DNA from: Sphingopyxis terrae subsp. terrae NBRC 15098
GTDB lineage: Bacteria > Pseudomonadota > Alphaproteobacteria > Sphingomonadales > Sphingomonadaceae
Length of the DNA stretch: 64,000 nucleotides
Assembly (NCBI RefSeq): GCF_001610975.1
Contig: NZ_CP013342.1
Location: forward strand, 2,427,001-2,491,000
Reading direction: 5' to 3'
Shown here: positions 19,759-42,538 of the stretch, piece after piece
Position numbering within the stretch: the first letter of the stretch is position 1
Layout: each line of letters opens with the position of its first letter
Notes under the pieces: model-generated
What the model was told of the DNA's origin: nothing
The model's input: the letters and a program-made list of their open reading frames with translations, nothing else
Databases searched by the model: none
Position numbers and translations under genes: made by a program

Positions 19759-19881
19759 AGATAATCTCCTTGGATGGTCGAAGCTTAGGCCGCGATGGCG
19801 CGCCGGGCGACCTGTCCTTTGGGCGGTATGTGCCTCAAAGGGCAGCTTGCCGCCGCGCGCGGCCCATGCTGGACGGCGCGC

Positions 19882-20337
19882 ATGAAGCTGACCGCAATCA
19901 CCGTGTCGCCTGCTACGCGCCGTCTCGGCTTCGCCGGGCTGCTTCCTGCCGCGGCATGCCTCGCGCTCATGCTCGCCGGCGGTGAGGCCTGGCGCTGGAC
20001 CGCTCTCGCCATCGGCTATCTCTATGCCGTGCTTATCTTCTCCTTCCTGGGCGGCGTCTGGTGGGGACTCGCCGTTCTGTTCGCGGACGCGCCGCGCTGG
20101 ACTCCGCTCGCGGCGGTGATGCCGAGCCTCATCGGGCTCGCGAGCTTTGCCCCGTGGCTTTTCGGCTACCCTTGGCCGCGGCCGTCGCTGATTCTGGTCG
20201 GACTTCTGCTGCTGGTTTCGCCGCTGATCGATCGCGCCATCGTCGGCGCCGCGCCCGGTGGTGACGCGTGGATCATTTTGCGCGTCCAATTGTCGACCGG
20301 GCTTGGCGTACTCAGCCTGTTGATCGCGCTTCTCTGA
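19882..20337 (+). CDS. DUF3429-family membrane protein
   Basis: 151 residues, about five membrane segments. The central YAVLIFSFLGGVWWGLAV and the MPSLIGLASFAPWLFGYPW region match my recollection of DUF3429, a small family often placed near photolyase and other light-stress genes in Proteobacteria. The start is taken at MKLTAITVSP (19882), just before the first hydrophobic segment. It is divergent from crtI and overlaps the 3' end of the convergent FAD gene by 26 bp. Function unknown. Confidence 0.75.
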   Translation: MKLTAITVSPATRRLGFAGLLPAAACLALMLAGGEAWRWTALAIGYLYAVLIFSFLGGVWWGLAVLFADAPRWTPLAAVMPSLIGLASFAPWLFGYPWPRPSLILVGLLLLVSPLIDRAIVGAAPGGDAWIILRVQLSTGLGVLSLLIALL

Positions 20338-21304
20338 CGACCTCGGACGTCAGCTCGCTGCGCTCGGCGAAGGACGCAGCGATATGGCATCCCAGCCGAT
20401 CGCCGCGCTCCCACGCGGCTTCGACAAAGCCGTGCGCGAGCCAGTCGCCGCAGGCACCGAGGCCGATTGCCGGATTCCACAGATCGACCGGATCACGGCC
20501 GGACGGCTGGCCGAACAGCCAGCGATGCGCGTGGCTGTGGATGGGCTGGGGGAGAATGAGGTCGTGCGCGCGCGCGAGGTCAACCAGCAGCGCTTGGCAG
20601 ATTTGATCGGCCGGCCGCGTCAGATTGGCCTCGCTCCATTCCCAGCTGGCCTGAACCACCCAGCATTCGGCAGCGCTGCGCCCAGGGCGCGTGCCATTGC
20701 GCATCGCGAGCGTGACGGGACCGTCGCCGCGTATCAGATCGGCCGCCGCGCCGATCGGCCGCGCGAAAAGGAAAATTGCCGACCATATGGGGTGCGAGCG
20801 GATCGCCATTGCCGCGCGGGCCATGGTGAAATCGTGCAGCGACAGAAGCGGAGCGGCCTGTTCTGCCGGGATGGCGACGACGGCGGCATCAAAAGGCGCG
20901 AAGCGCCTGCTTTCGCTGTGTACCGTCCAACCCGCAGGGCTGCGCGTCAGCGCCGTGACAGGGGTCGACCAATGAATGGCATGTGCGGCGCCATAGGCTT
21001 TGAGCGGCGCGTTCATCGTCGGCACCCCGATCCACGCATCGCGGCCGGCAACGGGCCAGCGGGCTGCAAGCCCAGCGGCTTCCCACTGGCTGACAAGCGC
21101 CGAAAAGCCCGCCGACCGTGCGGTAAAATGCGTCGCGCCATGATCGATCGCGATGGTGCCTTGATCCGAGTCGATGCGGCGCGTCGACATGCGCCCTCCG
21201 GACCCGCGCGCCTTGTCGAACAGCACGGGTTCGTGGCCCGCCGCACGCAGCGCCGCGGCGCACGCCAGTCCGGCTATTCCTGCCCCGACGATCGCGACGC
21301 GCAT
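20312..21304 (-). CDS. FAD-dependent amine-oxidase/renalase-like protein
   Basis: 330 residues. The flavin-binding N-terminus is MRVAIVGAGIAGLACAAALR, then the amine-oxidase-type FDKARGSGGRMSTRR motif. IDHGATHFTARS follows, typical of the renalase-like NAD(P)/FAD proteins found in photo-oxidative-stress clusters. The C-terminal flavin motif is IGLGACGDWLAHGFVEAAWERG. The start codon shares one base with the folE stop (TGATG), so it is translationally coupled behind folE. Substrate unknown. Confidence 0.82.
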   Translation of the reverse strand: MRVAIVGAGIAGLACAAALRAAGHEPVLFDKARGSGGRMSTRRIDSDQGTIAIDHGATHFTARSAGFSALVSQWEAAGLAARWPVAGRDAWIGVPTMNAPLKAYGAAHAIHWSTPVTALTRSPAGWTVHSESRRFAPFDAAVVAIPAEQAAPLLSLHDFTMARAAMAIRSHPIWSAIFLFARPIGAAADLIRGDGPVTLAMRNGTRPGRSAAECWVVQASWEWSEANLTRPADQICQALLVDLARAHDLILPQPIHSHAHRWLFGQPSGRDPVDLWNPAIGLGACGDWLAHGFVEAAWERGDRLGCHIAASFAERSELTSEVVREARSTG

Positions 21305-21936
21305 CAATAGCCCATCAGGCTGAGCACTTCCTTGCGGCTGCGCTGATCTTCGAGGAAGCAGCCGAGGACGCGGCTGGTGACCATGCCGACGCCGGGGGTG
21401 CGCACGCCGCGGCCGGTCATGCAGCCGTGCTGCGCGTCGATCACCACCGCAACGCCATGCGGGTGCAGATTGTCCCAGATGCATTTGGCGACCTCGGCGG
21501 TCAGCCGTTCCTGCACCTGCAGGCGGCGGGCATAGCCGTTGAGCACGCGTGCCAGCTTGGAAATGCCCACCACGCGCTCGCGCGGCAGATAGGCGATCGA
21601 GGCCTTGCCGGTGATCGGCGCCATATGATGCTCGCAGTGCGACTGAAAGGGGATGTCGCGCAGCAGGACGATCTCGTCATAGCCGCCGACCTCTTCGAAG
21701 GTGCGCGACAGATGGACCGCCGGATCCTCGCCATAGCCGCTGCAATATTCCTTCCACGCCCGCGCGACCCGCTTGGGCGTGTCGAGCAGGCCCTCGCGCG
21801 CCGGATCGTCGCCGACCCAGCGGATCAGCGTTTCGATCGCGCGCGCGACGTCGGCGGGAACCGGAAGTTTGCCATCGTCCGAAACCGGAGGCACGTCCGG
21901 CGTGTCGAGAAAGGGAGGGCGGGCGACGAAGTTCAT
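21304..21936 (-). CDS. folE: GTP cyclohydrolase I
   Basis: 210 residues; makes 7,8-dihydroneopterin triphosphate from GTP, the first step to folates and other pterins. The zinc and catalytic residues are visible: QSHCEHHMAPITGKASIAYLP (Cys-His) and DAQHGCMTGRGVRTPG (His, Cys). QVQERLTAEVAKCI and TSRVLGCFLEDQRSRKEVL complete the family pattern. The N-terminal ~25 residues are variable as usual. Being in operon with an FAD protein near a photolyase suggests a second role in supplying an antenna pterin, which is inference. Confidence 0.94.
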   Translation of the reverse strand: MNFVARPPFLDTPDVPPVSDDGKLPVPADVARAIETLIRWVGDDPAREGLLDTPKRVARAWKEYCSGYGEDPAVHLSRTFEEVGGYDEIVLLRDIPFQSHCEHHMAPITGKASIAYLPRERVVGISKLARVLNGYARRLQVQERLTAEVAKCIWDNLHPHGVAVVIDAQHGCMTGRGVRTPGVGMVTSRVLGCFLEDQRSRKEVLSLMGY

Positions 21937-22073
21937 GGTGCGGTACCTCGGGTGGCGGCCCGGAGGGGAGGTGAGGGAAGAGGGCCGCCGACTATGACTT
22001 GCATTGCGGCGCTGCTTTGTCGCAACATGTCCATTGGGGCAGGTCGCTCCCCGAAGATGAAAGTCCGAATTGC

Positions 22074-22661
22074 ATGTCCCTCAAAGCGATGATCGCAACC
22101 AGCCCGATCGCGGCGGTCATCAGCGATCCGCGGCGCCCCGACAATCCGATCGTCGAATGCAACGATGCCTTTGTCGCGCTGACCGGTTATTCCGCCGACG
22201 AGATCATCGGACAGAATTGCCGGTTTCTGACCGGTCCGGGAACCGAGGCCGAGCTCAGCCAACAGTTGCGCAGCGCCATCCGCGAACGGCGTCCCGTGCT
22301 CGTTGAAATCCTCAATTACAAGAAGGACGGCACGCCTTTCCGCAACGCTGTTCTCGTCGCGCCGATCTTTGGAAGCGATGGCAGCCTCGAATATTTTCTG
22401 GGGTCGCAGATGGAAGTTGACGATGGTGTGCTTCTGCGCGGCGAGCGCCAGGCGGAGGCGCGCGCGCGCATCGACGCGCTTTCACCGCGGCAGCGCGAGG
22501 TGCTGCTGCTGATGGCCGAAGGCAATCTCAACAAGCAGATCGGCTACAGCCTCGGCCTTTCGGAGCGGACAGTGAAGATGCACCGCGCCGCGCTGCTGAA
22601 GGCGCTCGGCGTGGCGACCACGGCCGACGCGATTCGCGTTGCGGTCGAAGCCGGCTTTTGA
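22074..22661 (+). CDS. LOV-HTH blue-light transcription factor (EL222-like)
   Basis: 195 residues. The LOV/PAS domain (about 5-115) contains GQNCRFLTGPGTE with the photo-adduct cysteine (Cys49), and the flavin-contacting FLGSQMEV with its Gln. The C-terminal LuxR-type HTH (about 128-190) is LSPRQREVLLLMAEGNLNKQIGYSLGLSERTVKMHRAALL. This is the compact LOV-HTH layout of EL222, where blue light frees the HTH to dimerise on DNA. Position after NCRFL is Thr rather than the usual Gln. The start MSLKAMIATSP (22074) puts the LOV cap directly at the N-terminus; the longer ORF adds non-matching residues. Confidence 0.92.
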   Translation: MSLKAMIATSPIAAVISDPRRPDNPIVECNDAFVALTGYSADEIIGQNCRFLTGPGTEAELSQQLRSAIRERRPVLVEILNYKKDGTPFRNAVLVAPIFGSDGSLEYFLGSQMEVDDGVLLRGERQAEARARIDALSPRQREVLLLMAEGNLNKQIGYSLGLSERTVKMHRAALLKALGVATTADAIRVAVEAGF

Positions 22662-22730
22662 TGACCACAAGGGCAGACTGCACCAAAGGCGGTATCGCCT
22701 GAGCGCCGCCATCGTGCAAACCGCCGCGCG

Positions 22731-23474
22731 ATGAACGAAAGACGCGGGAGAGGGACGCCGCGCCGGGCCTGCGTGCTCGGCGCGAGCGGTGGTATCGGTT
22801 CGGCGCTGGTCGCGGCGCTTGAGCGTCGGGGCGTCGAGAAAATCTATGCCGGATCGCGGCGCGCGATTGCAGCGAGAAGCCCGGCGGTGACGTCCTTCAC
22901 CTTCGACTTCGCCGATGAAGTGAGCCTTGAAGAGGCTGCAACGACAATCGCCGCCGAAGAGCCGCTCGACCTCATTCTGGTCGCGACCGGCCTGCTGCAC
23001 CGCGCCAGCGCGGTAAGGCCCGAAAAATCGGTGCGGCAGCTCGACCCTGCATCGCTTGCTGAACTTTTCCACGTGAACAGTATCGGCCCGGCGATTGCGG
23101 CGAAGCATTTCCTGCCGCATCTCGCGCGCGATGGCCGCGCGGTCATGGCCTTTCTTTCGGCACGCGTCGGTTCGATCGGCGACAACCGTCTCGGCGGCTG
23201 GTACGGCTACCGCGCGTCGAAAGCGGCGCTCAATGCCTTCGTACGCGGCATTGCGATCGAGGCGAGCCGTATGAATCGCGAGAGCATCGTCGTGAGCCTG
23301 CACCCCGGCACGGTCGACACGCGGCTTTCGATGCCGTTTCAGCGCGGTTTGGCGGCGGGGCAATTGCAACGCGCCGAACAAAGCGCCGATCATCTGCTGC
23401 AGGTGATCGAGCGCCTGACAGCCGAGGATAGCGGCGGCTTCTTTGCGTGGGATGGGCAGCCAATCGTCTACTGA
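22731..23474 (+). CDS. SDR-family oxidoreductase (C-factor-like)
   Basis: 247 residues. The Rossmann start is RRACVLGASGGIGSALVAAL, the catalytic motif is WYGYRASKAALNAF (Tyr-x3-Lys), with HVNSIGPAIAAKHFLPHL and SLHPGTVDTRLSMPF. The last two features are typical of the CsgA/C-factor-like SDR group commonly placed next to cryptochrome/photolyase genes. It follows the LOV-HTH gene by 69 bp and overlaps the convergent photolyase stop by 7 bp. NAD(P) binding is expected; the substrate is unknown. Confidence 0.85.
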   Translation: MNERRGRGTPRRACVLGASGGIGSALVAALERRGVEKIYAGSRRAIAARSPAVTSFTFDFADEVSLEEAATTIAAEEPLDLILVATGLLHRASAVRPEKSVRQLDPASLAELFHVNSIGPAIAAKHFLPHLARDGRAVMAFLSARVGSIGDNRLGGWYGYRASKAALNAFVRGIAIEASRMNRESIVVSLHPGTVDTRLSMPFQRGLAAGQLQRAEQSADHLLQVIERLTAEDSGGFFAWDGQPIVY

Positions 23475-24448
23475 GAACCGTCTTCGTCCATCGCCGCCAG
23501 AAATCGACTTGCTTCGCTGCGGATCTGCCTCTGTTCCTTCTCGGCAAAACGGTTCCAGCCGCGCAGAACCGGTTGCATGCGGGTATTGGCGCCAAGCCGC
23601 ACCGCGTGCCGCGCGATGAAATCCCAATAGAGAAAATTGAAGGGGCAAGCTCCCGCACCGGTCCGCTTTTTGACATCGTAGCGGCAGCCGCGGCAATAGT
23701 CCGACATGCGGTTGATATAAGCGCCGCTCGCCGCATAAGGCTTGGATGCAAGTAGCCCGCCGTCGGCGAACTGGCTCATGCCCAGCGTATTGGGCAGCTC
23801 GACCCATTCATAGGCATCGGCATAAACGGCGAGATACCAGCGGTGGAGCTCGGCCGGATCGACTCCCGCCAGCAGCGCGAAATTGCCGGTGACCATGAGC
23901 CGCTGGATGTGGTGCGCATAGGCCTCATCACGCGTCTGGCGCACGCAGGCGGCAACGCACGCCATATTGGTATCGGCGGTCCAGTAGAATGCGGGGAGCG
24001 GCCGCGTGGCGCCGAGCCGGTTCTCATCGGCATAGCCGGGCATGAAATGCCAATATATGCCGCGCATACATTCGCGCCATCCGAGGATCTGGCGAATGAA
24101 GCCTTCGGCGGCGTTGATGGGTACGCGTCCCGCGCGGCAAGCCTCGTCGACGCTGGCGCAAACCCGGCGCGGATCGAGTAGCCCGCAATTGAGATACTGC
24201 GCGATCACCGCATGGTAGAGAAAAGGCTCGCCGGCGAGCATGGCGTCCTGATTGTCGCCAAAGCGCGCGAGCCGATGCGCGACGAAATCGTCGAATGCCG
24301 CTTCCGCATCGGCACGGGTGACGGCAAATCCGAATGGCGACAGCGCACCGAAATTATCGGGGAATCGGGTTTCGACCATCGCCATGACATCGCGTGTGAT
24401 GACGTCGGGTGATGGGGTGGACGCCCCCCGGCGGCATCGATGTGCCAT
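23468..24448 (-). pseudogene. C-terminal part of FeS-type photolyase/cryptochrome, cut by an IS
   Basis: The C-terminal ~312 residues, from PDVITRDVMAMVETRF on, of a cryptochrome/photolyase family protein of the FeS bacterial (PhrB/CryB) type. FAD-domain motifs are present: GWRECMRGIYWHFMPGY, FYWTADTNMACV, HHIQRLMVTGNFALL, EWVELPNTLGMSQFADGG and KPYAASGAYINRM. Cysteines for the [4Fe-4S] cluster are seen in YLNCGLL, YCRGCRYD and GACPFNF. The native frame is interrupted at the GATGGG repeat (24411-24416), and residues upstream of that are encoded by the inserted element. Without the N-terminal half no working enzyme is expected. Confidence 0.9.
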
Positions 24449-24484
24449 AGTGGAGGTGTTATCACACCACTAGAGGAGGCGTCC

Positions 24485-25516
24485 GTGTTGGAAGTTAGCA
24501 TAATCGGATTGGATATCGCGAAGAATGTTTTTCATGCGCACGGCGCGGATGCGAGCGGGCGAGCACTGTTCAGCCGCAAGATCGGCCGAGGGAAGCTGCT
24601 GGAGTTCTTTGCTGGGCACCAGCGTTGTACGGTCGCGCTGGAAGCCTGTGGGGGCGCGCACCATTGGGGCCGAGAGCTGACACGGCTGGGATACAAGGTG
24701 AAGCTGATCCCGCCCGCGTATGTGAAGCCGTTCGTGAAGCGGAACAAGAATGATGCGGCGGATGCGGAGGCGATCTGCGAGGCCGCCCAGCGCCCGAGCA
24801 TGCGGTTCGTGGCGATCAAGAGCGAAGAGCAGCAGGCGTCAGGCCTGGTGTTCCGGACCCGTGACCTGCTGGTGCGGCAGCGCACCCAGCTGATCAATGC
24901 CATCCGAGGTCATCTTACCGAATATGGCTGGGTAGCGCCCAAGGGTCCCTCGCACGTCGCGATGCTCGGCGATCTGCTTGAGGACGAGATGGCCTCGTCG
25001 CTACCCGAGGCAGCCAGGTCGATGTTCCGCACGATGCTCGACCTGCTGGAGGAGCTGAACGAGAAGATCGGCGATCTCGACAAGGAGATTGCGCGCCGGG
25101 CTCGTGAGGATGCCGTCGCGAGGCGGCTTATGACGATCCCTGGGGTTGGACCGATTACGGCCACCGCATTGGCGGCTCTGGCGCCTCCAGCAGAAAGCTT
25201 CACCAAGGGACGGGACTTTGCGGCGTGGCTAGGTCTGGCGCCAAGGCAGATGTCGACGGGCGGCAAGCAGAAGCTGGGCTCGATATCCAAAATGGGCGAG
25301 CGCACACTGCGGCGATTGCTCATCATCGGTTGCAGTGCGGTGGTCCTGCAGGCCAGCAAGCGAGGCGCGCCTCAAGGCTCCTGGCTCGAGCAGATGATGG
25401 CGAGGAAACCGCGTATGCTAGTCACGGTTGCCCTTGCCAACAAGACAGCGCGGATCATCTGGGCCGTGCTTGTAAAGGGAGAGGATTACAGAGCTCCGGT
25501 CGCAGCCGCGGCGTAA
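24485..25516 (+). CDS. IS110/IS1111-family transposase
   Basis: 343 residues. The N-terminal RuvC-like DEDD domain has GLDIAKNVFHAHG (first Asp), TVALEACGGAHHWGREL (Glu) and KRNKNDAADAEAICEA (Asp pair). The C-terminal Transposase_20 domain has TIPGVGPITATALAAL and GRDFAAWLGLAPRQMSTGGK, then KLGSISKMGERTLRRLLI, which carries the catalytic Ser. GTG start at 24485 is chosen because GAGGAGG lies 5 bases upstream. The gene looks intact, so the element may still be active. Confidence 0.92.
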   Translation: MLEVSIIGLDIAKNVFHAHGADASGRALFSRKIGRGKLLEFFAGHQRCTVALEACGGAHHWGRELTRLGYKVKLIPPAYVKPFVKRNKNDAADAEAICEAAQRPSMRFVAIKSEEQQASGLVFRTRDLLVRQRTQLINAIRGHLTEYGWVAPKGPSHVAMLGDLLEDEMASSLPEAARSMFRTMLDLLEELNEKIGDLDKEIARRAREDAVARRLMTIPGVGPITATALAALAPPAESFTKGRDFAAWLGLAPRQMSTGGKQKLGSISKMGERTLRRLLIIGCSAVVLQASKRGAPQGSWLEQMMARKPRMLVTVALANKTARIIWAVLVKGEDYRAPVAAAA

Positions 25517-25771
25517 GCCAAGGCGGACCAGAGGTCGCCGGAAGGCGTAGTCGGTCGAAGGAGAGTATGGCACAACAGTCGGCGAGACGGGGCCGGAAGA
25601 ACCAGGGCTTTCCACTGTGCCGCGAGCACGCTGTGGGTGATGTGGTTCCGGTCCGCGAACTCCCATACGGGCCCGCAGCCTCCGATGCTGCATTGCAAGG
25701 CCGGACAGATGGCCGCATCCGACTACGTGCACTACCTCCAAAAATCGCTTGCGTCTTTTGGGGCGTCCACA
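25517..25771 (+). ncRNA. Possible bridge-RNA region of the IS1111-like element
   Basis: IS110-family elements encode a structured non-coding 'bridge' RNA in their longer non-coding end; in the IS1111 group that end is downstream of the transposase. Here the only long non-coding part of the element is this 255-bp right end. No fold was computed and exact RNA boundaries are unknown, so this marks the region to examine, not a defined transcript. Confidence 0.35.
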
Positions 25772-26364
25772 GATGGGAAAGCGTGCGGGCGGGTCATCAG
25801 AAGATCGCGCTCGGCGGGTTTGCGGTTGTCGGCATCGAAATTCCAGCGGCCGCCGAGCGGGACTTCGCCATCCATCAGCAGCCCCGTCTCGCGGCGCATC
25901 ATGCGGTAGAAATATTCCATCCGCAGAGTCTTCCGACCCTCGGCCCACGCCGCGAATTGATTGGGTGCAGAGAAAAATCGGTCGTCGGCGAAGATGGTGC
26001 AGTTCGTCCAGGCACGCATCGCCTCGGCGAGGCGCCACTCGCCCGCTTCGGTCACGCGCAAGGGAAGGTCGCCATGGCGATTGCGTGCGCGCGCAACCTC
26101 GCCGCCGAGCGATCCGCTATTGTCCGGATCGTCGAGGCGGACATAGTCGACGCGCCATCCCTGTGCGCACATCTCCTCGGCAAAATGGCGCATCGCGGAA
26201 AAGAGAAAGGCAAGCTTCTTGCGGTGGTGGGGAACGTATCCCGCTTCTTCGGCGACTTCGGCCATCAGCAGAATCGTGTCGGCCGGCGACGCATCGCGGA
26301 GCGACGAGATGGCGGGGGTCAATTGGTCTCCCAATATCAGGACAATCTCGCTGGGTCTGGTCAT
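25732..26364 (-). pseudogene. N-terminal part of FeS-type photolyase/cryptochrome, cut by an IS
   Basis: The N-terminal ~197 residues of the same photolyase gene, from MTRPSEIVLILGDQLTPAIS to the codons for RPHAFPS. It contains the alpha/beta antenna domain (ILLMAEVAEEAGYVPHHRKK, LAFLFSAMRHFAEE) and the linker EVPLGGRWNFDADNRKP, conserved in the FeS type. After the GATGGG repeat the frame continues a few codons into the IS and stops at 25732. Joined to the C-terminal part at the repeat, the protein would be about 508 residues, the usual family length. Confidence 0.9.
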
Positions 26365-26382
26365 GGCACCGCGCGGCGGCAT

Positions 26383-33038: not shown

Positions 33039-34364
33039 ATGGACAATAGGACATTTGCGGACAGGTCTGACCTGGAACGATCGAAGCCGGCCGGGCATCA
33101 CGGCCTTGTGCTCGGCATGCTGTGCTTCGTCTATGTGCTGAACTTCCTCGATCGCCAGCTCGTCTCGATCCTCGCCAAGCCGATTCAGGACGGCTTGCAC
33201 ATCACCGACAGCGAACTCGGCCGGATCACCGGTTTCTATTTTGCGCTCTTCTATTGTTTTATCGCGATTCCTGTTGGTTGGCTCGCCGACCGCACCAATC
33301 GCGTAAAGGTGCTTTCGATCGCTTGCGGCCTGTGGAGCGCCGCGACCGCGGCATGCGGCATGGCGGCGAACTATGGGCAACTTGTGGCGGCACGTATGGC
33401 GGTTGGTGTCGGCGAAGCCGGCGGCGTTCCGCCGTCCTACGCGATCATATCGGACACGTTTCCGCGCGAGCAGCGCGGCACCGCGATGGGCATCTTCAAC
33501 CTCGGCCCGCCGATCGGTTCGGCGCTCGGGGTCGCGTTCGGCGCGTCGCTCGCGGCGGCCTATGACTGGCGCGCGCCTTTCCTCATCGTCGGCGCGATAG
33601 GCGTCGTTACCGCAGTCCTCGTCTATATCATCGTGCCCGAACCCGCGCGCGGCCGCTTCGACCCGCTTCCTGCGGCCGCGGCGGAACCGGCGCACAGCTT
33701 CGGGCAGGCGATCCGCGCCTTTTTCGGCAACAGGATATTGACGCTCGCGGCGCTAGCCAGCGGTGCCGCAAATTTCATCACCTATGGCGTCAGCAATTTC
33801 GCCACGCTTTTTCTCATGCGTGAGAAGGGGATGACGCTTGAGGAGGTGGCAATATGGTACGCGCTGGCGGTCGGCCTCGGAATGGGGGCGGGCATTTTCG
33901 TCTCAGGGCGGCTGATCGACCGGTTCGGCGTTACCAACAAGGCGGCCTATGCGAGCATCCCGGCCTGGTCGCTCGTTCTCGCCTTGCCCTTCTTTCTCGG
34001 CTTCGCTGCTGCCGACAGCTGGCAGGTCGCGCTCCCCCTCTTGTTCGTGCCGCTCTTCCTCAATTCCTTTTTCCTCCCTGCCACGGTGACGTTCGTGCAG
34101 AGCGAGGTCGATCCGGGCGCGCGCGTGATATCGGGCGCGCTGCTGCTGCTGGTCATGAACCTGATCGGCCTCGGTCTCGGGCCAACTTTCGTCGGCATGG
34201 CCAGCGACTTTTTCCGGCCGCAATATGGCGAGCACGCACTCCGCATGGCCTTTTATTCGCTGTCGCCAATGTATCTCGTCGCCGCGCTGCTCTTCGCCTG
34301 GCTTGCGCGAATGATCAAACGGTCGTCGCCAGCATCCGGCGAGCCGCGGCAGGCCGGCGATTAG
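33039..34364 (+). CDS. MFS transporter (Spinster-like)
   Basis: 441 residues, 12 predicted membrane segments. FVYVLNFLDRQLVSILAKPI in TM1 and GWLADRTNRVKVL in loop 2-3 are the major-facilitator signatures of the group close to eukaryotic Spinster, common in sphingomonad catabolic clusters. GEAGGVPPSYAIISDTFPREQRG follows in TM4-5. GGGAGAGG-type RBS (CTGGGAGAGGACG) precedes the ATG. It probably moves the cluster's acid substrate across the inner membrane; direction unknown. Confidence 0.87.
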   Translation: MDNRTFADRSDLERSKPAGHHGLVLGMLCFVYVLNFLDRQLVSILAKPIQDGLHITDSELGRITGFYFALFYCFIAIPVGWLADRTNRVKVLSIACGLWSAATAACGMAANYGQLVAARMAVGVGEAGGVPPSYAIISDTFPREQRGTAMGIFNLGPPIGSALGVAFGASLAAAYDWRAPFLIVGAIGVVTAVLVYIIVPEPARGRFDPLPAAAAEPAHSFGQAIRAFFGNRILTLAALASGAANFITYGVSNFATLFLMREKGMTLEEVAIWYALAVGLGMGAGIFVSGRLIDRFGVTNKAAYASIPAWSLVLALPFFLGFAAADSWQVALPLLFVPLFLNSFFLPATVTFVQSEVDPGARVISGALLLLVMNLIGLGLGPTFVGMASDFFRPQYGEHALRMAFYSLSPMYLVAALLFAWLARMIKRSSPASGEPRQAGD

Positions 34365-34437
34365 ACGAAAAATGCGCTTGGCGCGCAGCGAGGTTGCGCG
34401 GCGGAACTGGGCACCGACAAGAAGACGGGAGACAGAT

Positions 34438-36078
34438 ATGACGCGGAAATATGGCGCCGCTTGCCTTACGGCCCTGGTGGCCGGATTGTTGGTTCCTACG
34501 GCGGTAGCCACGGCGGCGGAAACGCCGTCGTCCGCCGACGCCGCACGGCGCTGCACCAACCTCGCCCGATTGCGCCTTGCCGACACGACAATCGAAAGCG
34601 CTGCGCTTGTCCCTGCAAAGGCCGCCGAGCTCGGCATAGCGGACGACATGCCTGGCTATCGAAGCTTCTGCCGCGTGGTTGCGCGCGTGCGCTCGGACCT
34701 AGATTCTGACATTGGCGTCGAGATATGGCTGCCGACCGAGCGATGGGCCGGCGTCTTCCATGGCAATGGCAACGGCGGCTTTGCCGGTGTCCTTGCCGGC
34801 GGCTATTCGGGAATGGTCGATGGTCTGCGCCGCGGATTTGCGACCGCGACGACCGATGCCGGAACCGCACCGGCGTCGCCGCTGGATGGTGAGGCACTCA
34901 TCGATCATCCCCGCAAATGGAGGGACTGGGGCCGGCTTTCGACGCATGTGATGACGATCACCGGGAAGGCGATCACCAAGGCTTTCTACGGCCGCGATGC
35001 AAGGCGTTCCTTTTATACCGGATGTTCGACGGGCGGGCAGCAGGGGCTCATCGAATCGCTCTACTATCCTGAAGACTATGACGGGATTCTGGTCGGAGCG
35101 CCGGTCATTAACCGCACATGGGGGCACGCCGCAGTGCTCTGGGACTATGCCGCTGCGCACCGCACGCCGGACAGCCTGCTATCCGATGCCAAGCTCAAGC
35201 TGCTCAACCGGGCGGCGGTCGCGACGTGCTGGCGGCAGGGCCATGGCCTCGCGGGCGACCGGTTTGTTTCGGACCCGCTGAATTGCAAGTTCGACCCGGG
35301 GGTGCTGCAATGCAGGGGCGCGGCGGGCAACGCTTGCTTGACCGAAGCCGAGGTTGCAACCGCGCGGGCCTTTTATTCGGGGCCCACGAACCGCGCGGGC
35401 AAGGCCAATTACTTCGGCTGGTTGCCGGGAAGCGAAACGCCCGACACCTTCGGCTGGTCCTTCCTTCAAAAGCCGATCAGGGATCAGCCACCTTTCGGGG
35501 CGCTGTTCAAATGGGTGTTCGGCGCCGATTGGGACTGGAAGGGATTCGATTTCGATCGCGACATGCCCACGGTCGATGCGCGCCTCGACCCGATCGTCAA
35601 CGACGCGACGCGCGGAAGTCTTGCGGCTTTTACCGCGCGCGGCGGCAAGCTGATCATTTTCCACGGCCTTGCCGATACGCTCGTGGCGCCCGGCCAGTCG
35701 ATCGCATTTTTCGATCGTCAGGCGGCCGAGGTCGGCGGCGATCACCGGCTTGCGGAGAGCGCGCGCCTGTTCCTGGCGCCCGGCATGATGCATTGCGGCG
35801 GCGGGACCGGGCCGGACAGCTTCAACGCCACGCTCGGGATCCCACCCCAGCCGCCCGGCTATGACGCAGAGCATGATCTATTTTCGGCGCTGATCGAATG
35901 GGCGGACGGGGGCGATGCGCCCGATCAGGTCATCGCTACGAAGTTCGCCAGCGACGACGCCGGCAGGATCGACATGCAACGCCCGCTGTGCGCCTATCCG
36001 CGGAAGGTCGAATATCGCGGTTGGGGGTCGACGCTGTCGGCGAGCAGCTTTCGGTGCGTCGCGCCGGACGATCGCTGA
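34438..36078 (+). CDS. Tannase/feruloyl-esterase family hydrolase
   Basis: 546 residues. The signal peptide (MTRKYGAACLTALVAGLLVP) ends near VATAAET. The alpha/beta hydrolase nucleophile is in YTGCSTGGQQGLIESL, the Asp in FHGLADTLVAPGQS and the His in APGMMHCGGG. A Cys next to both the Ser and the His is the CS-D-HC motif of tannase/feruloyl esterases, whose disulfide holds the triad. It cleaves an ester in the periplasm or outside. Start at 34438 has GGGAGAC upstream and begins the signal peptide. Confidence 0.88.
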   Translation: MTRKYGAACLTALVAGLLVPTAVATAAETPSSADAARRCTNLARLRLADTTIESAALVPAKAAELGIADDMPGYRSFCRVVARVRSDLDSDIGVEIWLPTERWAGVFHGNGNGGFAGVLAGGYSGMVDGLRRGFATATTDAGTAPASPLDGEALIDHPRKWRDWGRLSTHVMTITGKAITKAFYGRDARRSFYTGCSTGGQQGLIESLYYPEDYDGILVGAPVINRTWGHAAVLWDYAAAHRTPDSLLSDAKLKLLNRAAVATCWRQGHGLAGDRFVSDPLNCKFDPGVLQCRGAAGNACLTEAEVATARAFYSGPTNRAGKANYFGWLPGSETPDTFGWSFLQKPIRDQPPFGALFKWVFGADWDWKGFDFDRDMPTVDARLDPIVNDATRGSLAAFTARGGKLIIFHGLADTLVAPGQSIAFFDRQAAEVGGDHRLAESARLFLAPGMMHCGGGTGPDSFNATLGIPPQPPGYDAEHDLFSALIEWADGGDAPDQVIATKFASDDAGRIDMQRPLCAYPRKVEYRGWGSTLSASSFRCVAPDDR

Positions 36079-36124
36079 GCTGCCCCTTTCCGCCGGGCGT
36101 ATCGTCTGCCGACAGGAGGTACGG

Positions 36125-36592
36125 ATGCTGAATCGCAGGGAGTTCGCGGGCCTTACCGCCGCAGGGGCGGCCACCTCGCTGGCTACGCTATCGGCTCCTG
36201 CACCGGCGGCAGGCACTATCACCTATCATTCGCGCGCATCGTCGCTCGTCCCGGGCGAGGCGCGTGTCGCCATCTACCTGCCGCCGGGCTATGACGCCGA
36301 TCGAACCGACCCCTATCCGCTGCTGCTGCTGCTGCTCCACGGCGGAAACGGTAGCGAGAAGGATCTCGCCTTCTTCAAGGGCGTTTTCGACGGCGAGATT
36401 GCGGGGGGTCGGCTGCCGCCGCTCGTCATTGCCACGCCGACCGGGCGTCGCTCGCTCTATATGGATTTCCGGGACGGGTCGGAGCGATGGGAGAGTTTCG
36501 TTCTTTCGGACGTCCTGCCGTTCGTGCGCAGAAGCGCCCATGTCTCGAAGGGGCGCGAGCACAGCTTCATCGGCGGCCTCGCGGGTCAATAG
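36125..36592 (+). pseudogene. Truncated secreted esterase (EstD/feruloyl-esterase-like)
   Basis: The frame encodes 155 residues from an ATG with AGGAGGTACGG upstream. It starts with a twin-arginine-like signal (MLNRREFAGLTAAGAATSLA). The body is a putative alpha/beta esterase: VAIYLPPGYDADRTDPYPLL, LLHGGNGSEKDLAFF and VLPFVRRSAHVSKGREHSFI. It stops at SFIGGLAGQ, exactly where the family's GxSMGG nucleophile elbow should come. The Ser, Asp and His triad is therefore missing. DNA beyond the stop holds hairpins and no continuation in any frame, so a deletion or insertion removed the 3' half. Confidence 0.72.
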
Positions 36593-36609
36593 AACCCCAC
36601 CGCAAAAGA

Positions 36610-36631
36610 GCCTCGCATCTGTATGCGAGGC
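36610..36631. terminator. Hairpin after the truncated esterase
   Basis: GCCTCGCAT-CTGT-ATGCGAGGC is a perfect 9-bp stem with a tetraloop, preceded by CAAAA and followed by CCTTTC. It lies 18 bp after the esterase stop and would end transcription of the TonB-receptor cluster. Confidence 0.6.
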
Positions 36632-36652
36632 CCTTTCATCCTCTGCGGTCGT

Positions 36653-36684
36653 GACCAAAGGAAGCCCCATTGGCTTCCCTGGTC
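36653..36684. repeat. Second hairpin with interrupted stem
   Basis: GACCAAAGGAAGCC and GGCTTCCCTGGTC pair around a short loop with a one-base asymmetry, and a third partial copy (GGGAAGCCTTTG) follows at once. There is no T-tract. It may be part of whatever element truncated the esterase. Confidence 0.45.
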
Positions 36685-36756
36685 GCAGGGAAGCCTTTGT
36701 CATGGGGGCATAGGCCAATGCTAGGTGATGTCGAGCGTTATCGCAGCCGATCCTGT

Positions 36757-36963
36757 CTAAATCGCTGTGACCTGCTGCTGTGCATGCGCGCTGCTATAGC
36801 CGACAAAATCAGGTTGGAGCCCGCGTTTTTCGCGAAACATATTGATCCGCTGCGCATAATGGTTCGGCAGATCGAAGTGGGCCGGTGCTTCGCCTTTGTG
36901 GTGTGCTCGGTCGGCAGCGATCACGGCAAGTTGGTGATGGTAGAAGAGCTGGTTCATATCCAT
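36757..36963 (-). CDS. Small conserved-looking protein, 68 residues
   Basis: Encodes MDMNQLFYHHQLAVIAADRA and ends HAQQQVTAI. The 'LFxxHQ' opening followed by a helical stretch with a YAQRI-type motif (DLPNHYAQRINMFRE) resembles small alphaproteobacterial proteins of unknown function that I have seen in sphingomonads. It is polar, without signal or membrane helix. No strong RBS is evident. Together with the next two loci and the cold-shock gene it forms a run of short genes on the minus strand. Confidence 0.5.
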   Translation of the reverse strand: MDMNQLFYHHQLAVIAADRAHHKGEAPAHFDLPNHYAQRINMFREKRGLQPDFVGYSSAHAQQQVTAI

Positions 36964-37037
36964 TGAAATTATCCGGGTTCGGGTTCGTCAGTAATCAGGC
37001 GCGAACATCGCGCCTCGATTTTTTGCATCGCGCGACA

Positions 37038-37244
37038 TTATTCGAGGCATTGGGCGCGGACCGCATCTGCGAGCTGCTCTTTGACGGCACGGGCCTGTTC
37101 GGATTTGAACTGGCGGTTGGCCAGCGCGTGCCAGGTGGCAGCCGAACGAAGGTTGCGCTCTCGAACCAGCGTCAGGTCCGCTGCGGCCGCTTCGGCCTCG
37201 CATCGCTCGGCCTGCTCGCGATAATTGTCGCTGCTTGCTGCCAC
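37038..37244 (-). CDS. Small conserved-looking protein, 68 residues, GTG start
   Basis: A GTG at 37244 with GAGGAAA upstream opens MAASSDNYREQAERCEAEAA (initiator GTG), continuing DLTLVRERNLRSAATWHALA. The pattern 'YRxQAExCExEAxxA ... VRERxLRSAxxW' recurs in short helical proteins of Alphaproteobacteria of unknown role. The ORF is open further upstream (to 37349), but that part overlaps the degraded IF-1 copy in another frame, so the GTG is preferred. Confidence 0.6.
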   Translation of the reverse strand: MAASSDNYREQAERCEAEAAAADLTLVRERNLRSAATWHALANRQFKSEQARAVKEQLADAVRAQCLE

Positions 37245-37260
37245 GGCGTTTTCCTCTCGT

Positions 37261-37426
37261 TCAATCGACCGCGCGGACGTCGCCGATCGCTGGAGGGATG
37301 CGAAAGCATCGCATCCGTCCAGCGGTATGGGCGGTCGGCCGATGGCCATTTTCCAGGGTGACGCGGAAACCGCCGGTCGGGCAGAATTATCGCGATCGAG
37401 CCCTCGAAGATGAGACCTTCTTCCAT
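37261..37426 (-). pseudogene. Frameshifted second copy of translation initiation factor IF-1
   Basis: From the ATG at 37426 the frame reads [20 protein letters not shown] and then loses similarity. Skipping one C in TTTCCGCG restores [20 protein letters not shown] and FRIPPAIGD, ending at a TGA. The composite follows the IF-1 OB fold: FEG-x-I-x3[15 protein letters not shown]2-TAH-x-AGRMR-x-FRI-x4-GD. The normal last ~15 residues (VTVEL-x-PYDL) are missing. IF-1 is essential, so a working infA must lie elsewhere. It sits 20 bp downstream of the cold-shock gene on the same strand. Confidence 0.7.
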
Positions 37427-37446
37427 GCCATTGCGGAAGGTCCGGA

Positions 37447-37653
37447 TCAGGCCGCTTCTAGATTGACCCCGGAGATCTTGCCGTCGCGACCGGTTTCCAG
37501 CGCGTACGAGACCCGCTGGTCCTTGCCCAGCGTCGCCATTCCGGCGCGCTCGACCGCGGTCACATGGACGAAGCTGTCGCCCGAGCCGTCCTCGCTCGAG
37601 ATGAAGCCGTAGCCCTTATCGCTGTTGAAGAATTTGACTGTGCCGATCGGCAT
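37447..37653 (-). CDS. Cold-shock domain protein (CspA family)
   Basis: 68 residues: MPIGTVKFFNSDKGYGFISS (RNP1 KGYGFI), then DSFVHVTAVERAGMATLGKD, where RNP2 is SFVHV rather than the common VFVHI. Single OB-fold nucleic-acid chaperone that melts RNA structure. The start at 37653 is the family start, with GAAAGGAA upstream. The AT-rich stretch upstream suggests a long 5' leader, as in cspA genes. Confidence 0.93.
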   Translation of the reverse strand: MPIGTVKFFNSDKGYGFISSEDGSGDSFVHVTAVERAGMATLGKDQRVSYALETGRDGKISGVNLEAA

Positions 37654-38281
37654 TGGATGTTTCCTTTCACGAAAACAGAGTGTCCGCCGGCACAAGCGCC
37701 GACAGAGCTGGAAGCGTGAGAAGGGAAGAATCGCCCCGATTGGGGCATCAAAATTCCGTCGCAGGCGACGTTAGCAACTGGTACATGGGGTATCATTTTT
37801 GAAAAGTCAAGGATTTTCAATATATTTCGACATGGACTCTCATAGTATCCGTAATTATCTTAATTTCGAAATAGCGGAAGAGGCTTGTCGGGTTGGGTTT
37901 GATAAATCATTTTATTGGTATGTTTGTTCGCGTTATTTAAAATCCGGATAGATCATTCGACGCACATGAGCGCACGCCAGTATTCGCGGCTTATCGGCGA
38001 ATGGATGAGGGCGAGCCGCCCTGGATCGATCACCGCATTGCGGCTCGAAATGGGCGGCGCGGTCGGGCCTCATCCTGTCGGCGCTTAAACATGGTGGGCG
38101 AGGTGATTTCGCACCCTTTCCCCGTCCGGTTGCTGAAACGGCGCTTTTCGAAACGTCCGACGTCATGCGCTAAAGTCGCTGGGCACGCGCTTTTTCGTCG
38201 GCTGCCGTGCGCGGCGGTAGTTTGACAATCGTCTGCTGCGCGCTGATGTCGTCTAGAGTCGGCGTATTTTCGTGCCCGGAA
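37654..38281. other. About 630 bp non-coding, including probable csp leader
   Basis: The ~270 bp upstream of the cold-shock gene (37654-37925) include the most AT-rich stretch of the window and probably hold its promoter and 5' leader; TTGACT (37810-37805, minus strand) is a possible -35. The rest, up to the guaA stop, shows no credible gene: the short overlapping frames at 37933-38225 on both strands are low-quality. No tRNA was found. Confidence 0.5.
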
Positions 38282-39868
38282 TCATTCCCACTCGATCGTG
38301 CCCGGCGGCTTCGAGGTATAATCGTACACCACGCGGTTGATACCCTGCACCTCGTTGATGATCCGCGTCGCGCAGCGGCTGAGGAAGCTTGCGTCGAAGG
38401 GGTAGATGTCGGCGGTCATGCCGTCGGTCGAGGTCACGGCGCGCAGCGCGCAGACATGGTCATAGGTGCGCCCGTCACCCATCACGCCGACGGTCTTGAC
38501 AGGCAGCAGCACCGCAAAAGCCTGCCAGATCGCATCGTAGAGGCCGGCATTGCGGATCTCTTCCAGATAGACGGCATCGGCCTTGCGGAGGATGTCGCAG
38601 CGCTCCTTCGACACCTCACCGGGGATGCGGATTGCGAGGCCGGGGCCGGGGAAGGGGTGGCGGCCGACGAAGATGTCGGGGAGGCCGAGTTCCTTGCCGA
38701 GCAGGCGGACCTCGTCCTTGAACAGTTCGCGCAGCGGTTCGACGAGCTTCATGTTCATCCGCTCGGGAAGGCCGCCGACATTGTGGTGGCTCTTGATCGT
38801 AACGCTTGGCCCGCCGGTGAAGCTCACGCTCTCAATGACGTCGGGATAGAGCGTGCCTTGCGCGAGGAAGTCGGCGCCGCCGATCTTCTTCGCTTCCTCC
38901 TCGAAGACGTTGATGAATTCGGCGCCGATGAACTTGCGCTTCTTTTCGGGGTCGGTGACCCCTGCGAGGCCCGCCATGAAGCGTTCCTCCGCATCGACGA
39001 CGACGAGCGGGATGTTGTAATGGTCGCGGAACAGTTGTTCGACCTGCTCGCGCTCGTTCATGCGCAGCAGGCCATGGTCGACGAAGACGCAGGTGACCTG
39101 CTCGCCGATGGCTTCGTGGATCAGCACCGCCGCGACCGCGCTGTCGACGCCGCCCGACAGCCCGCACAGCACGCGCTGGTCACCGACCTGCGCCCGGATC
39201 TCGGCGATTTTCGTCGCACGGAATTCCGCCATCGTCCAGTCGCCGCTGCACCCGCAGACGTGGCGCACGAAATTGGCGATCAGCTTGGCGCCGTCGGGTG
39301 TATGGACGACCTCGGGGTGGAATTGGGTGCCGTAATAGCGCCGTTCGTCGTCCGCGATCAGCGCGAAGGGAGCGCCATCGCTCACCGCGACGATGCGAAA
39401 GCCAGCGGCGAAGCGCGTGACGCGGTCGCCGTGGCTCATCCACACCTGATGCCGTTCACCGACTTCCCACAGCCCGTCGAAGAGCACGCAGGGTTCGGTG
39501 ACGGTCAGGAAGGCGCGGCCGAATTCGCCGTCGCGCTCGCCATCGGCGCCGCCCGGTTCGACCTGCCCGCCGAGCTGCTGACTCATCACCTGCTGGCCGT
39601 AGCAGATACCGAGGATGGGAAGGCCGCTTTCAAATACCGATTGCGGGGCGCGCGGGCTGCCCGCCGCAGGGACCGATGCCGGTGAGCCCGAGAGGATCAC
39701 GCCCTTGGGCTTCATCCGTTCGAGCGCGGCCTCGGCGGCGTTGAACGGAACGATCTCGCTGTAGACGCCGGCCTCGCGGACACGGCGGGCGATGAGCTGG
39801 GTGACCTGGCTGCCGAAATCGACGATCAGGATCGATTCGGGGGCGGCGGAAGAGGCTGGAGTCGGCAT
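38282..39868 (-). CDS. guaA: GMP synthase (glutamine-hydrolysing)
   Basis: 528 residues; converts XMP to GMP with glutamine and ATP. The N-terminal class I glutamine amidotransferase has [13 protein letters not shown]-type nucleophile (Cys89) and [10 protein letters not shown]. The PP-loop ATP pyrophosphatase has [20 protein letters not shown]. The C-terminal dimerisation domain ends [20 protein letters not shown] and TIEWE, the invariant GuaA tail. Start at 39868 ([20 protein letters not shown]) is chosen because the longer frame adds unrelated sequence. Confidence 0.97.
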
Positions 39869-40087
39869 GGCTGGCCGATACGGATGCCGGGGCCGACTGT
39901 CTAGGGTCAAGCCGAGCGCTCGGGCGCTTCGTCGGTCCGGGACGGGCGTTGGTGGAAGCGCCCTCGCGATGCCATAGTGTTGCGACAATTGGCGAATAGC
40001 TGCCCGGCAAGACCGAAACTCGCTTCATCGTCGGTTCAATCGGGTCCGGCATGATGATCAAAAGACAAGATAAAGGTTCTCCCCACC

Positions 40088-42538
40088 ATGTATGTTCGAC
40101 CGCTCCTTCCCATGCGCGCCCTGTTGCTGACCGGCGCCGCGATTGTGGCTGTCCCGGCCGCGATGGCGCAGGATCAGGCGACCGTCCCCGTCGCTTCGAG
40201 CTCGGGCACCCCGACCGACGACGATATCGACTATGCCGACGAGATCGTCGTGACCGCGCCGCGGATCGCGGGGCAACTCGATACCGATATCGCGGCCGAG
40301 GCCGAACTCGATGAAGCCGCGATCGCCAGTTACGGCGCCTCGTCGATCGAGGAACTGCTGACGGCGCTCGAACCGATCACGCGGTCGGGACGCGGGCGCG
40401 GTAGCGGGCGGCCGGTGATCCTGGTCAACGGGCGCCGGATCGGCGGCTTCGGCGCGGTGCGCAACCTTCCGCCCGAAGCGATCGCCAAGGTCGAGATTTT
40501 CCCCGAGGAAGTCGCGCTGCAATATGGCTATGCCGCAACCGACCGCGTGGTGAATTTCGTGCTCAAGCCCGATTTCAAACAGGTGTCGGTGGAGGGCGAG
40601 GCAGGCCTGCCGACGCAGGGCGGGCAGTTCAAGAGCGAGCTGGAACCCGCGGTCGTCGCGATCGGACAGAATGGCCGCTTCAACCTCAACGGGGGGTGGG
40701 AGCATCAGACGATGCTGCTCGAACGCGAGCGCGACCTTGGCGACACGGGGCGCAGCCTGTTGCCCGCCAGCGACACCTATATCATCGACGGCACGATCGT
40801 CCGCAATCTCGACAAGGTCACCGACCTGTCGGCAAGCCTGCGGTTCGACCAGACCGACAGCCTCAGCCTTCTCGGCCCCGGCGCGGGCGGTGTCAGCGAT
40901 CCGCTGCGCCGCGACAGCCGGACGCAGAACTGGACGGGTTCGGCAAGCGCCAACGGCATGCTCGGCGCGTGGCGCTGGTCGGTTACGGGCAATTATGCCG
41001 ACAGCGATCAGCGCATCTTTACCGAACGTCTGAGTGGCGGGCGTGACCGTTTCGACAGCAGCCAGCAGAGCTTCGGCGGCAATGCCAATATCTCGGGCAG
41101 CGTGATCGAGGGATGGGCCGGCCCGATCCGCGCATCGATCACCGGCGCTTATACCGGCCTGCGTTATGATAGCCGCGCCGACCGCAGCGGCGTCATCACG
41201 ACGAGCGACCTCGCGCGCGACACGCCGAGCGTTTTCGGATCGCTGACCGTGCCGATCCTCGATCCCGACTATGATGTCGGCAAGATCGGTCGCATTTCGC
41301 TGACGCTGAACGGCCAGGTCGAAAACCCCAGCGATTTCGCCGCGCTAAAAAGCTGGGGCGCGACGCTTAATTGGGGGCTGACCGACAATCTGTCGTTGCT
41401 CGCAAGCTTCAATCGCGACGAGGCGGCGCCTTCGGTGACACAGCTTGGCGCGGCGCCGCTGGTTACCGACAATGTGACTTACTACGACTTCCGCACCGGC
41501 CAGACGGTGCAGATCCAGACGACGACCGGCGGCAATCCTTTCCTCCTCGCCGAACAGCGCCGCGATGTGAAGCTCGGGCTCAACTGGTCGCCGCCGATGG
41601 TCGAGGGGCTGAGCCTTTCGATCAACTACAACAGCAACCGCAGCGACGACACCAGCAACGGCTTCCCGCTGCTGACGCCAGAGATCGAGGCGGCTTTCCC
41701 GGATCGCGCAACGCGCGTCGGCGGCGTGCTCGTCGCGCTCGACCAGCGTCCGGTGAATTTCGACCGCGCAACCAATTCGCAAATCCGCTGGGGGATCAAT
41801 TTCGGCCGCAGTTTCGGCCAGTCGCAAGCGGGCCCGGGCGCGGGCCGCTTCGGTGGCGGTCGTCCGGCTGGCGGCGCCGAGCGGCGTCCGCAGCCGGCGC
41901 AGGGTGACGCCCCGCCGCCGCCCGACGGGCAGGCGGCAAAGCCTGCTGGATCGGGCGATGCGCCCGCCGCAGCGCCTGCGCGTCCGCGTGGCCCCGGCGG
42001 CGGCTTTCGCGGGGGACGCGGGGGGCGCGGCGGTCCTGGCGGCATGTTCGGCGGACCGCAGGGCGGGCGCTGGCAATTGTCGCTCTATCACACGATCAAG
42101 CTGACCGACCGCGTGCTGATACGGCCCGGCGTCCCTGAACTCGATCTGCTGAACGGATCGGCGATCGGCAATGGTGGCGGCAGCAACCGCAATCTGGTCG
42201 AACTCGACGGCGGCGTCTTTTACAAGGGCGTCGGTGCCCGGGTCAGCGCCAAATATGACAGCGGCAGCCGCGTCGTCGGCGGCGCCAACGGCGACCTGGC
42301 CTTCCACGATCTTGCGACCTTCAACCTGCGCTTCTTCGTCGATTTCAATCAGAAGCCCGAACTGACCAAGGCGCTGCCGATCCTGAAGGGATCGCGCCTG
42401 CGCCTGTCGATCGATAATCTGTTCGATGCGCAGCGCAAGGTCACCGACGCCAGCGGCGTCGTGCCGCTCACCTACGCGCCGGGCTATATTGACCCGCTCG
42501 GCCGCTATATCGAGCTGGAGTGGCGCAAGGCCTTCTAG
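40088..42538 (+). CDS. TonB-dependent receptor with Arg/Gly/Pro-rich insert
   Basis: 816 residues. Signal peptide ends near PAAMAQDQ; the plug carries DEIVVTAPRIAGQLDTDI, VILVNGRRIGGFGAVR and VALQYGYAATDRVVNF. The barrel closes with YIDPLGRYIELEWRKAF (terminal Phe). Between about residues 580 and 660 is a low-complexity block of Gly, Arg, Pro and Ala (GRFGGGRPAGGAERRPQPA, then FRGGRGGRGGPGGMFGGP). Such a block within a barrel strand pair would lie in an extracellular loop. A start at 40112 is also possible. Ligand unknown; divergent from guaA and convergent with the glycosyltransferase. Confidence 0.87.
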   Translation: MYVRPLLPMRALLLTGAAIVAVPAAMAQDQATVPVASSSGTPTDDDIDYADEIVVTAPRIAGQLDTDIAAEAELDEAAIASYGASSIEELLTALEPITRSGRGRGSGRPVILVNGRRIGGFGAVRNLPPEAIAKVEIFPEEVALQYGYAATDRVVNFVLKPDFKQVSVEGEAGLPTQGGQFKSELEPAVVAIGQNGRFNLNGGWEHQTMLLERERDLGDTGRSLLPASDTYIIDGTIVRNLDKVTDLSASLRFDQTDSLSLLGPGAGGVSDPLRRDSRTQNWTGSASANGMLGAWRWSVTGNYADSDQRIFTERLSGGRDRFDSSQQSFGGNANISGSVIEGWAGPIRASITGAYTGLRYDSRADRSGVITTSDLARDTPSVFGSLTVPILDPDYDVGKIGRISLTLNGQVENPSDFAALKSWGATLNWGLTDNLSLLASFNRDEAAPSVTQLGAAPLVTDNVTYYDFRTGQTVQIQTTTGGNPFLLAEQRRDVKLGLNWSPPMVEGLSLSINYNSNRSDDTSNGFPLLTPEIEAAFPDRATRVGGVLVALDQRPVNFDRATNSQIRWGINFGRSFGQSQAGPGAGRFGGGRPAGGAERRPQPAQGDAPPPPDGQAAKPAGSGDAPAAAPARPRGPGGGFRGGRGGRGGPGGMFGGPQGGRWQLSLYHTIKLTDRVLIRPGVPELDLLNGSAIGNGGGSNRNLVELDGGVFYKGVGARVSAKYDSGSRVVGGANGDLAFHDLATFNLRFFVDFNQKPELTKALPILKGSRLRLSIDNLFDAQRKVTDASGVVPLTYAPGYIDPLGRYIELEWRKAF

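Follow-up and report, generated by a model that had tools for sequence, protein, structure and literature searches.

The window, that is, the whole stretch of 64,000 nucleotides of Sphingopyxis terrae subsp. terrae NBRC 15098 analysed here, contains next to a cold-shock gene (csp) two short reading frames that together resemble translation initiation factor IF-1 (infA). These frames raise the question whether a functional IF-1 gene is present in disguise, through a sequencing error or a genuine +1 shift, or whether a csp-linked paralogue of an essential translation factor has decayed, all of which had been considered in an earlier note on this DNA. The two genes involved are the following:

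37447-37653, minus strand: csp, intact, encoding a cold-shock domain protein of 68 aa (PF00313, 62.6 bits; dN 0.026 and dS 0.302 to the copy of genome G008)
37261-37431, minus strand: very probable infA (IF-1) pseudogene, the genome's third IF-1 copy; it extends from the ATG of the ancestral start (37431) to a TGA derived from gene X1 next to it, as aligned with the 85-aa copies of six genomes

The infA remnant starts 15 bases past the stop of csp. Its first frame begins at an ATG at 37426 and reads 19 residues in line with IF-1, while the second frame reads 35 residues and is closed by a TGA at 37263-37261. The joined translation, with an X at the join, scores 94 against the genome's own infA, 138 against its own second infA and, against the G008 copy, 152. 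In each of these comparisons all 2000 shuffles stay below the score, with maxima of 48, 55 and 53, so that the expectation that the composite aligns to IF-1 better than shuffled sequence is borne out. By itself, the second frame lies above its shuffles in all three comparisons and the first frame for two of the three targets, its score of 27 against the housekeeping infA remaining below the shuffle maximum of 38. Like IF-1 (infA, PF01176), the composite can be aligned from near the N-terminus to just beyond the GD motif. Unlike IF-1, the remnant has neither a single frame nor a C-terminal part, and in a profile search of the own genome it reaches 19.3 bits to PF01176, under the curated cut-off of 30.2 bits. 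A single open frame across the whole OB-fold domain is absent from the remnant, the frame being broken twice and the C-terminal two fifths being deleted.

The same profile search reveals three IF-1 places in the genome:

C1:2505852: housekeeping infA, intact (PF01176, 93.2 bits)
C1:3644159: second infA copy, intact (65.3 bits)
C1:2464297-2464383: third infA copy, the remnant in the window (19.3 bits)

The designation as a second infA copy in the earlier note is therefore correct in identity but not in number. The intact second copy also sits behind a csp gene, and its locus matches window positions 37265-37812 at 73%. To place the remnant among its relatives, window positions 37230-37700 were searched as DNA against 80 genus genomes, this one among them, and the best eight candidates per genome were scored. 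A match of about 88% identity over 429 bases is present in six of the 79 other Sphingopyxis genomes (G008, G075, G021, G063, G004 and G040), all with the gene order csp, infA, X1, X2 and start of X3. In these six genomes the infA beside csp is whole (85 aa), which is the intact orthologue that the earlier note proposed to look for in relatives, and the orthologue of G008 reaches 75.2 bits to PF01176.

Comparison with these six relatives reveals three disabling lesions in the window copy, none of which occurs in the six closest copies:

37424-37428, minus strand: lesion 1, loss of one base right after the ancestral start codon
37367-37369, minus strand: lesion 2, gain of one base, TTT where the six closest copies have TT
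37265-37268, minus strand: lesion 3, TCGA junction of a 255-bp deletion, TCGA being present at both ends of the missing stretch in G008 and G021

Because of the base lost in lesion 1, the ancestral infA frame now ends after 14 codons, and the ATG at 37426 is another one, in the IF-1 frame. This loss after the ancestral ATG (37431) went unnoticed in the earlier note, which named only the frameshift further on and ascribed it to one extra C. An extra base is indeed found there, but it is a T (TTT against TT) with respect to the six closest copies and a C only with respect to the more distant copy of G051, which reads TTT CGC, that is, TTT with one C fewer behind. Judged by the six closest copies an extra T is the more parsimonious reading, although sequence alone cannot separate the two. 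The absence of the normal C-terminus, also recorded earlier, is the result not of the frameshift but of the 255-bp deletion at about 37268-37265, which took the IF-1 C-terminus together with most of X1. The TGA that closes the composite translation is the stop of X1. The size of the deletion was counted against G008 and G021, and in the genome set, with one genome per species, it is seen in one strain.

The remaining codons of infA differ from their counterparts in a pattern that is not shared by csp. Over 47 codons the remnant shows 15 protein-changing and 7 silent differences to G008 (dN 0.162, dS 0.21) and 16 and 6, respectively, to G021, whereas the same codons in the intact pair G008 and G021 differ by 1 protein-changing and 6 silent changes; these counts are small, pairwise rather than branch-specific, and cover the part of infA that remains, with the deleted two fifths left out. 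For the 68 codons of csp, the window shows 4 protein-changing and 12 silent differences to G008, and 5 and 10 to G021. Fisher tests distinguish infA from csp (p 0.020 for G008, p 0.023 for G021) and infA of the window from that of the intact pair (p 0.011). Compared with the neutral expectation from site counts, the protein-changing share does not differ for infA (p 0.63) but does for csp (p 2e-5). In X2 the comparison of the window with G008 gives dN 0.094 and dS 0.498. The protein-changing differences of infA thus lie close to the neutral rate, whereas csp and X2 are constrained.

Taken together, the whole orthologues beside csp in six genomes, the three lesions, and the near-neutral infA next to a constrained csp uphold the earlier suggestion of a decayed, csp-linked IF-1 paralogue. 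On this sequence evidence, the infA stretch is almost certainly the pseudogene of an accessory, csp-linked IF-1 paralogue.

A sequencing or assembly error that hides an infA gene which is whole in the cell is very unlikely. Errors of this kind seem to occur in the searched set, for example in the split housekeeping infA of G055, and either single-base lesion could be one, but homopolymer errors do not produce a 255-bp deletion with a clean TCGA junction. There are, in addition, roughly 15 protein-changing differences between the remnant and G008, and the genome itself (G000) is rated 100% complete in 2 contigs, with an intact housekeeping infA. Even less credence can be given to the idea that the TTT C site directs a programmed +1 shift and so yields a functional short IF-1. 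In other systems UUU-C is a known +1 slip site, and the second frame is open until a stop shortly past the GD motif, but the six closest copies read through in one frame without a shift, and neither the shift site nor the second frame is conserved in them. The product would still be without the C-terminal two fifths, and the near-neutral protein-changing differences also speak against such a function. Both explanations, which the earlier note had offered as alternatives to decay, could touch the single-base lesions only and leave the missing 255 bp unexplained.

A further alternative is that the remnant, or the 84-aa ORF of its first frame (37426-37172), has been retained, either as a new short peptide or as a leader coupling csp to X2. 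This ORF is open for 84 codons, and csp and X2 on both sides are constrained. However, the ORF overlaps the start of X2 in a different frame, Pfam gives no match for its first 65 aa (P0001), and open frames of this length commonly arise by chance, 65 ORFs of at least 40 aa being found over 34000-41000. Retention as a peptide or leader is accordingly highly improbable. As far as the sequence allows a classification, the infA remnant is an ordinary case of a redundant translation-factor paralogue turned pseudogene, located in a variable region at the 3' end of guaA.

The remnant and csp are part of a larger module, the further features of which are the following:

36597-37811, minus strand: whole csp-infA-(X1)-X2-X3 module common to relatives (blastn)
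37038-37244, minus strand: X2, intact and constrained ORF of 68 aa with a presumed GTG start, part of the csp-infA module
36757-36963, minus strand: X3, open ORF of 68 aa, the last of the module (80 aa in G040, 87 aa in G008)
38282-39988, minus strand: guaA, the chromosomal neighbour, whose 3' end borders the variable region

Neither X2 nor X3 has a Pfam match, and a search of Rfam over 36000-38500 with E up to 1 gives no match. X3 is perhaps shortened in the window, so that decay may extend beyond infA and X1. In the relatives examined, similarity to the window stops at or close to the module borders 36597 and 37811 (37932 for G008), and the DNA that flanks the module in the window is not found beside it in them (blastn). 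In a plasmid collection 83 records match part of the module, none of them more than 80%, and the 20 plasmid rows among the matches listed all fall inside query positions 37-367, corresponding to csp and its leader. The shared module starts directly behind the end of an esterase gene that is cut short (36124-36592; PF00756 is matched only over positions 4-120 of 251).

Pairs of csp and infA are widespread in the genus. With a spanning match defined by a query start of at most 27 and an end of at least 405, csp and infA are spanned in at least 65 of the 80 genus genomes (own included) among the matches listed, and at least 14 of the 80 have two or more such matches. In the remaining 15 no spanning match is found among the matches listed; some of these are incomplete genomes or contig ends. 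Of the best 80 of 542 loci, 13 have csp upstream on the same strand at a distance of at most about 310 bases, and 3 further loci have it elsewhere or on the other strand. The csp-infA pairs of Sphingopyxis and other alphaproteobacteria resemble the window in having csp followed by infA on one strand, but differ from it in that the infA member is dead in the window while csp is alive. The split IF-1 match of G055 (L065, G055:C1:2130159-2130349) was considered as a second decayed copy and rejected. It is the housekeeping gene, split between frames in a genome that is 87% complete in one contig, and since an essential gene would not tolerate such a split it probably reflects a sequencing error. 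In G001, a csp-linked infA (L064, 4038-4208) shows a frame break at a different place, and the second csp-linked copy of that genome is intact.

In a tree of 35 csp-infA rows, the window is sister to G008 (support 97/83) within an eight-row clade (100/99). This clade is part of a set of 15 rows (96/98), separate from the other 20, among which the genome's own second pair clusters with that of G079 (100/100). The end branch of the window measures 0.17, against 0.024 for its sister G008. By guaA the closest genome is G079 (95%), whose best match to the window query is the other csp-infA pair (72%). The 3 kb behind guaA in G079 contain no csp-infA module; a phage-type integrase gene is located there. 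The genes that come after guaA in G049 and G061 sit at about 8.5-10.9 kb in the window. About 27 kb of the window (10960-38280, starting near 10.96 kb and ending at 38.28 kb) are thus missing from this place in both genomes and constitute a variable segment at the 3' end of guaA, an end at which GIsul2 is known to insert (PMC9376610). A search for an attachment-site repeat with the last 23 bases of guaA, allowing at most 3 mismatches, gives no second copy within the window, although an 8-base core would escape it. Elsewhere in the segment, a photolyase-related gene (PF04244 DPRP in 25732-26382, minus strand) seems to be interrupted by an IS110-type transposase gene (24440-25516, plus strand), on the other side of which a 326-aa ORF (23468-24448, minus strand) without Pfam match looks by eye like the rest of the photolyase-related gene. 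In G001 (L064, 1-4546) the csp-infA module adjoins genes like those at window 19310-23346, which sit about 13 kb from the module of the window.

The most likely history is the following. The accessory csp-infA module would have been gained or kept in this genome, where its IF-1 probably became superfluous beside two whole copies. Decay of infA may have been tolerated because the housekeeping infA and the second csp-linked infA are intact. It would have proceeded by small indels and a short-repeat deletion, the 255 bp presumably being lost by slippage or recombination between the TCGA repeats. Both csp and X2 seem to be still under selection in the window, and the remnant is now probably only a spacer in the csp transcript. 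Where the module is whole, csp and IF-1 may be made together and adjust translation initiation under cold or slow growth.

Sphingopyxis granuli TFA is reported to have three genes for IF-1, one of which, SGRAN_2506, is induced without oxygen; for the whole gene set, the authors explain the induction by slower growth (PMC6472365). The two genomes are alike in having three IF-1 genes in one Sphingopyxis genome, but in the genome of the window one of the three is broken. A literature search for csp-linked or duplicated infA found no paper on the pairing; it was a weak search, since the term infA also matched 'infant'. Only tentatively, it may be proposed that Sphingopyxis, and sporadically other alphaproteobacteria, carry csp-infA(-X1-X2-X3) as an accessory module whose gain, duplication and loss occur as one unit and which serves as a dedicated cold- or stress-linked spare IF-1, coupling the dosage of initiation factor to a cold-shock protein; in that case the window would hold a module that is dying from its IF-1, with csp and X2 still selected.

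As a pseudogene, the infA remnant itself matters little. It identifies the dispensable part of the csp-infA module in a genome with spare IF-1 genes, and, if the proposal is true, the csp and X2 partners of the module work without their own IF-1. Of mild interest is how often, within the genus, an extra IF-1 is linked to a cold-shock gene. In Escherichia coli, cold shock raises the ratio of IF1, IF2 and IF3 to ribosomes by a factor of at least three (PMC6511841), and a csp-linked spare infA would be another route to raised IF-1 after cold shock.
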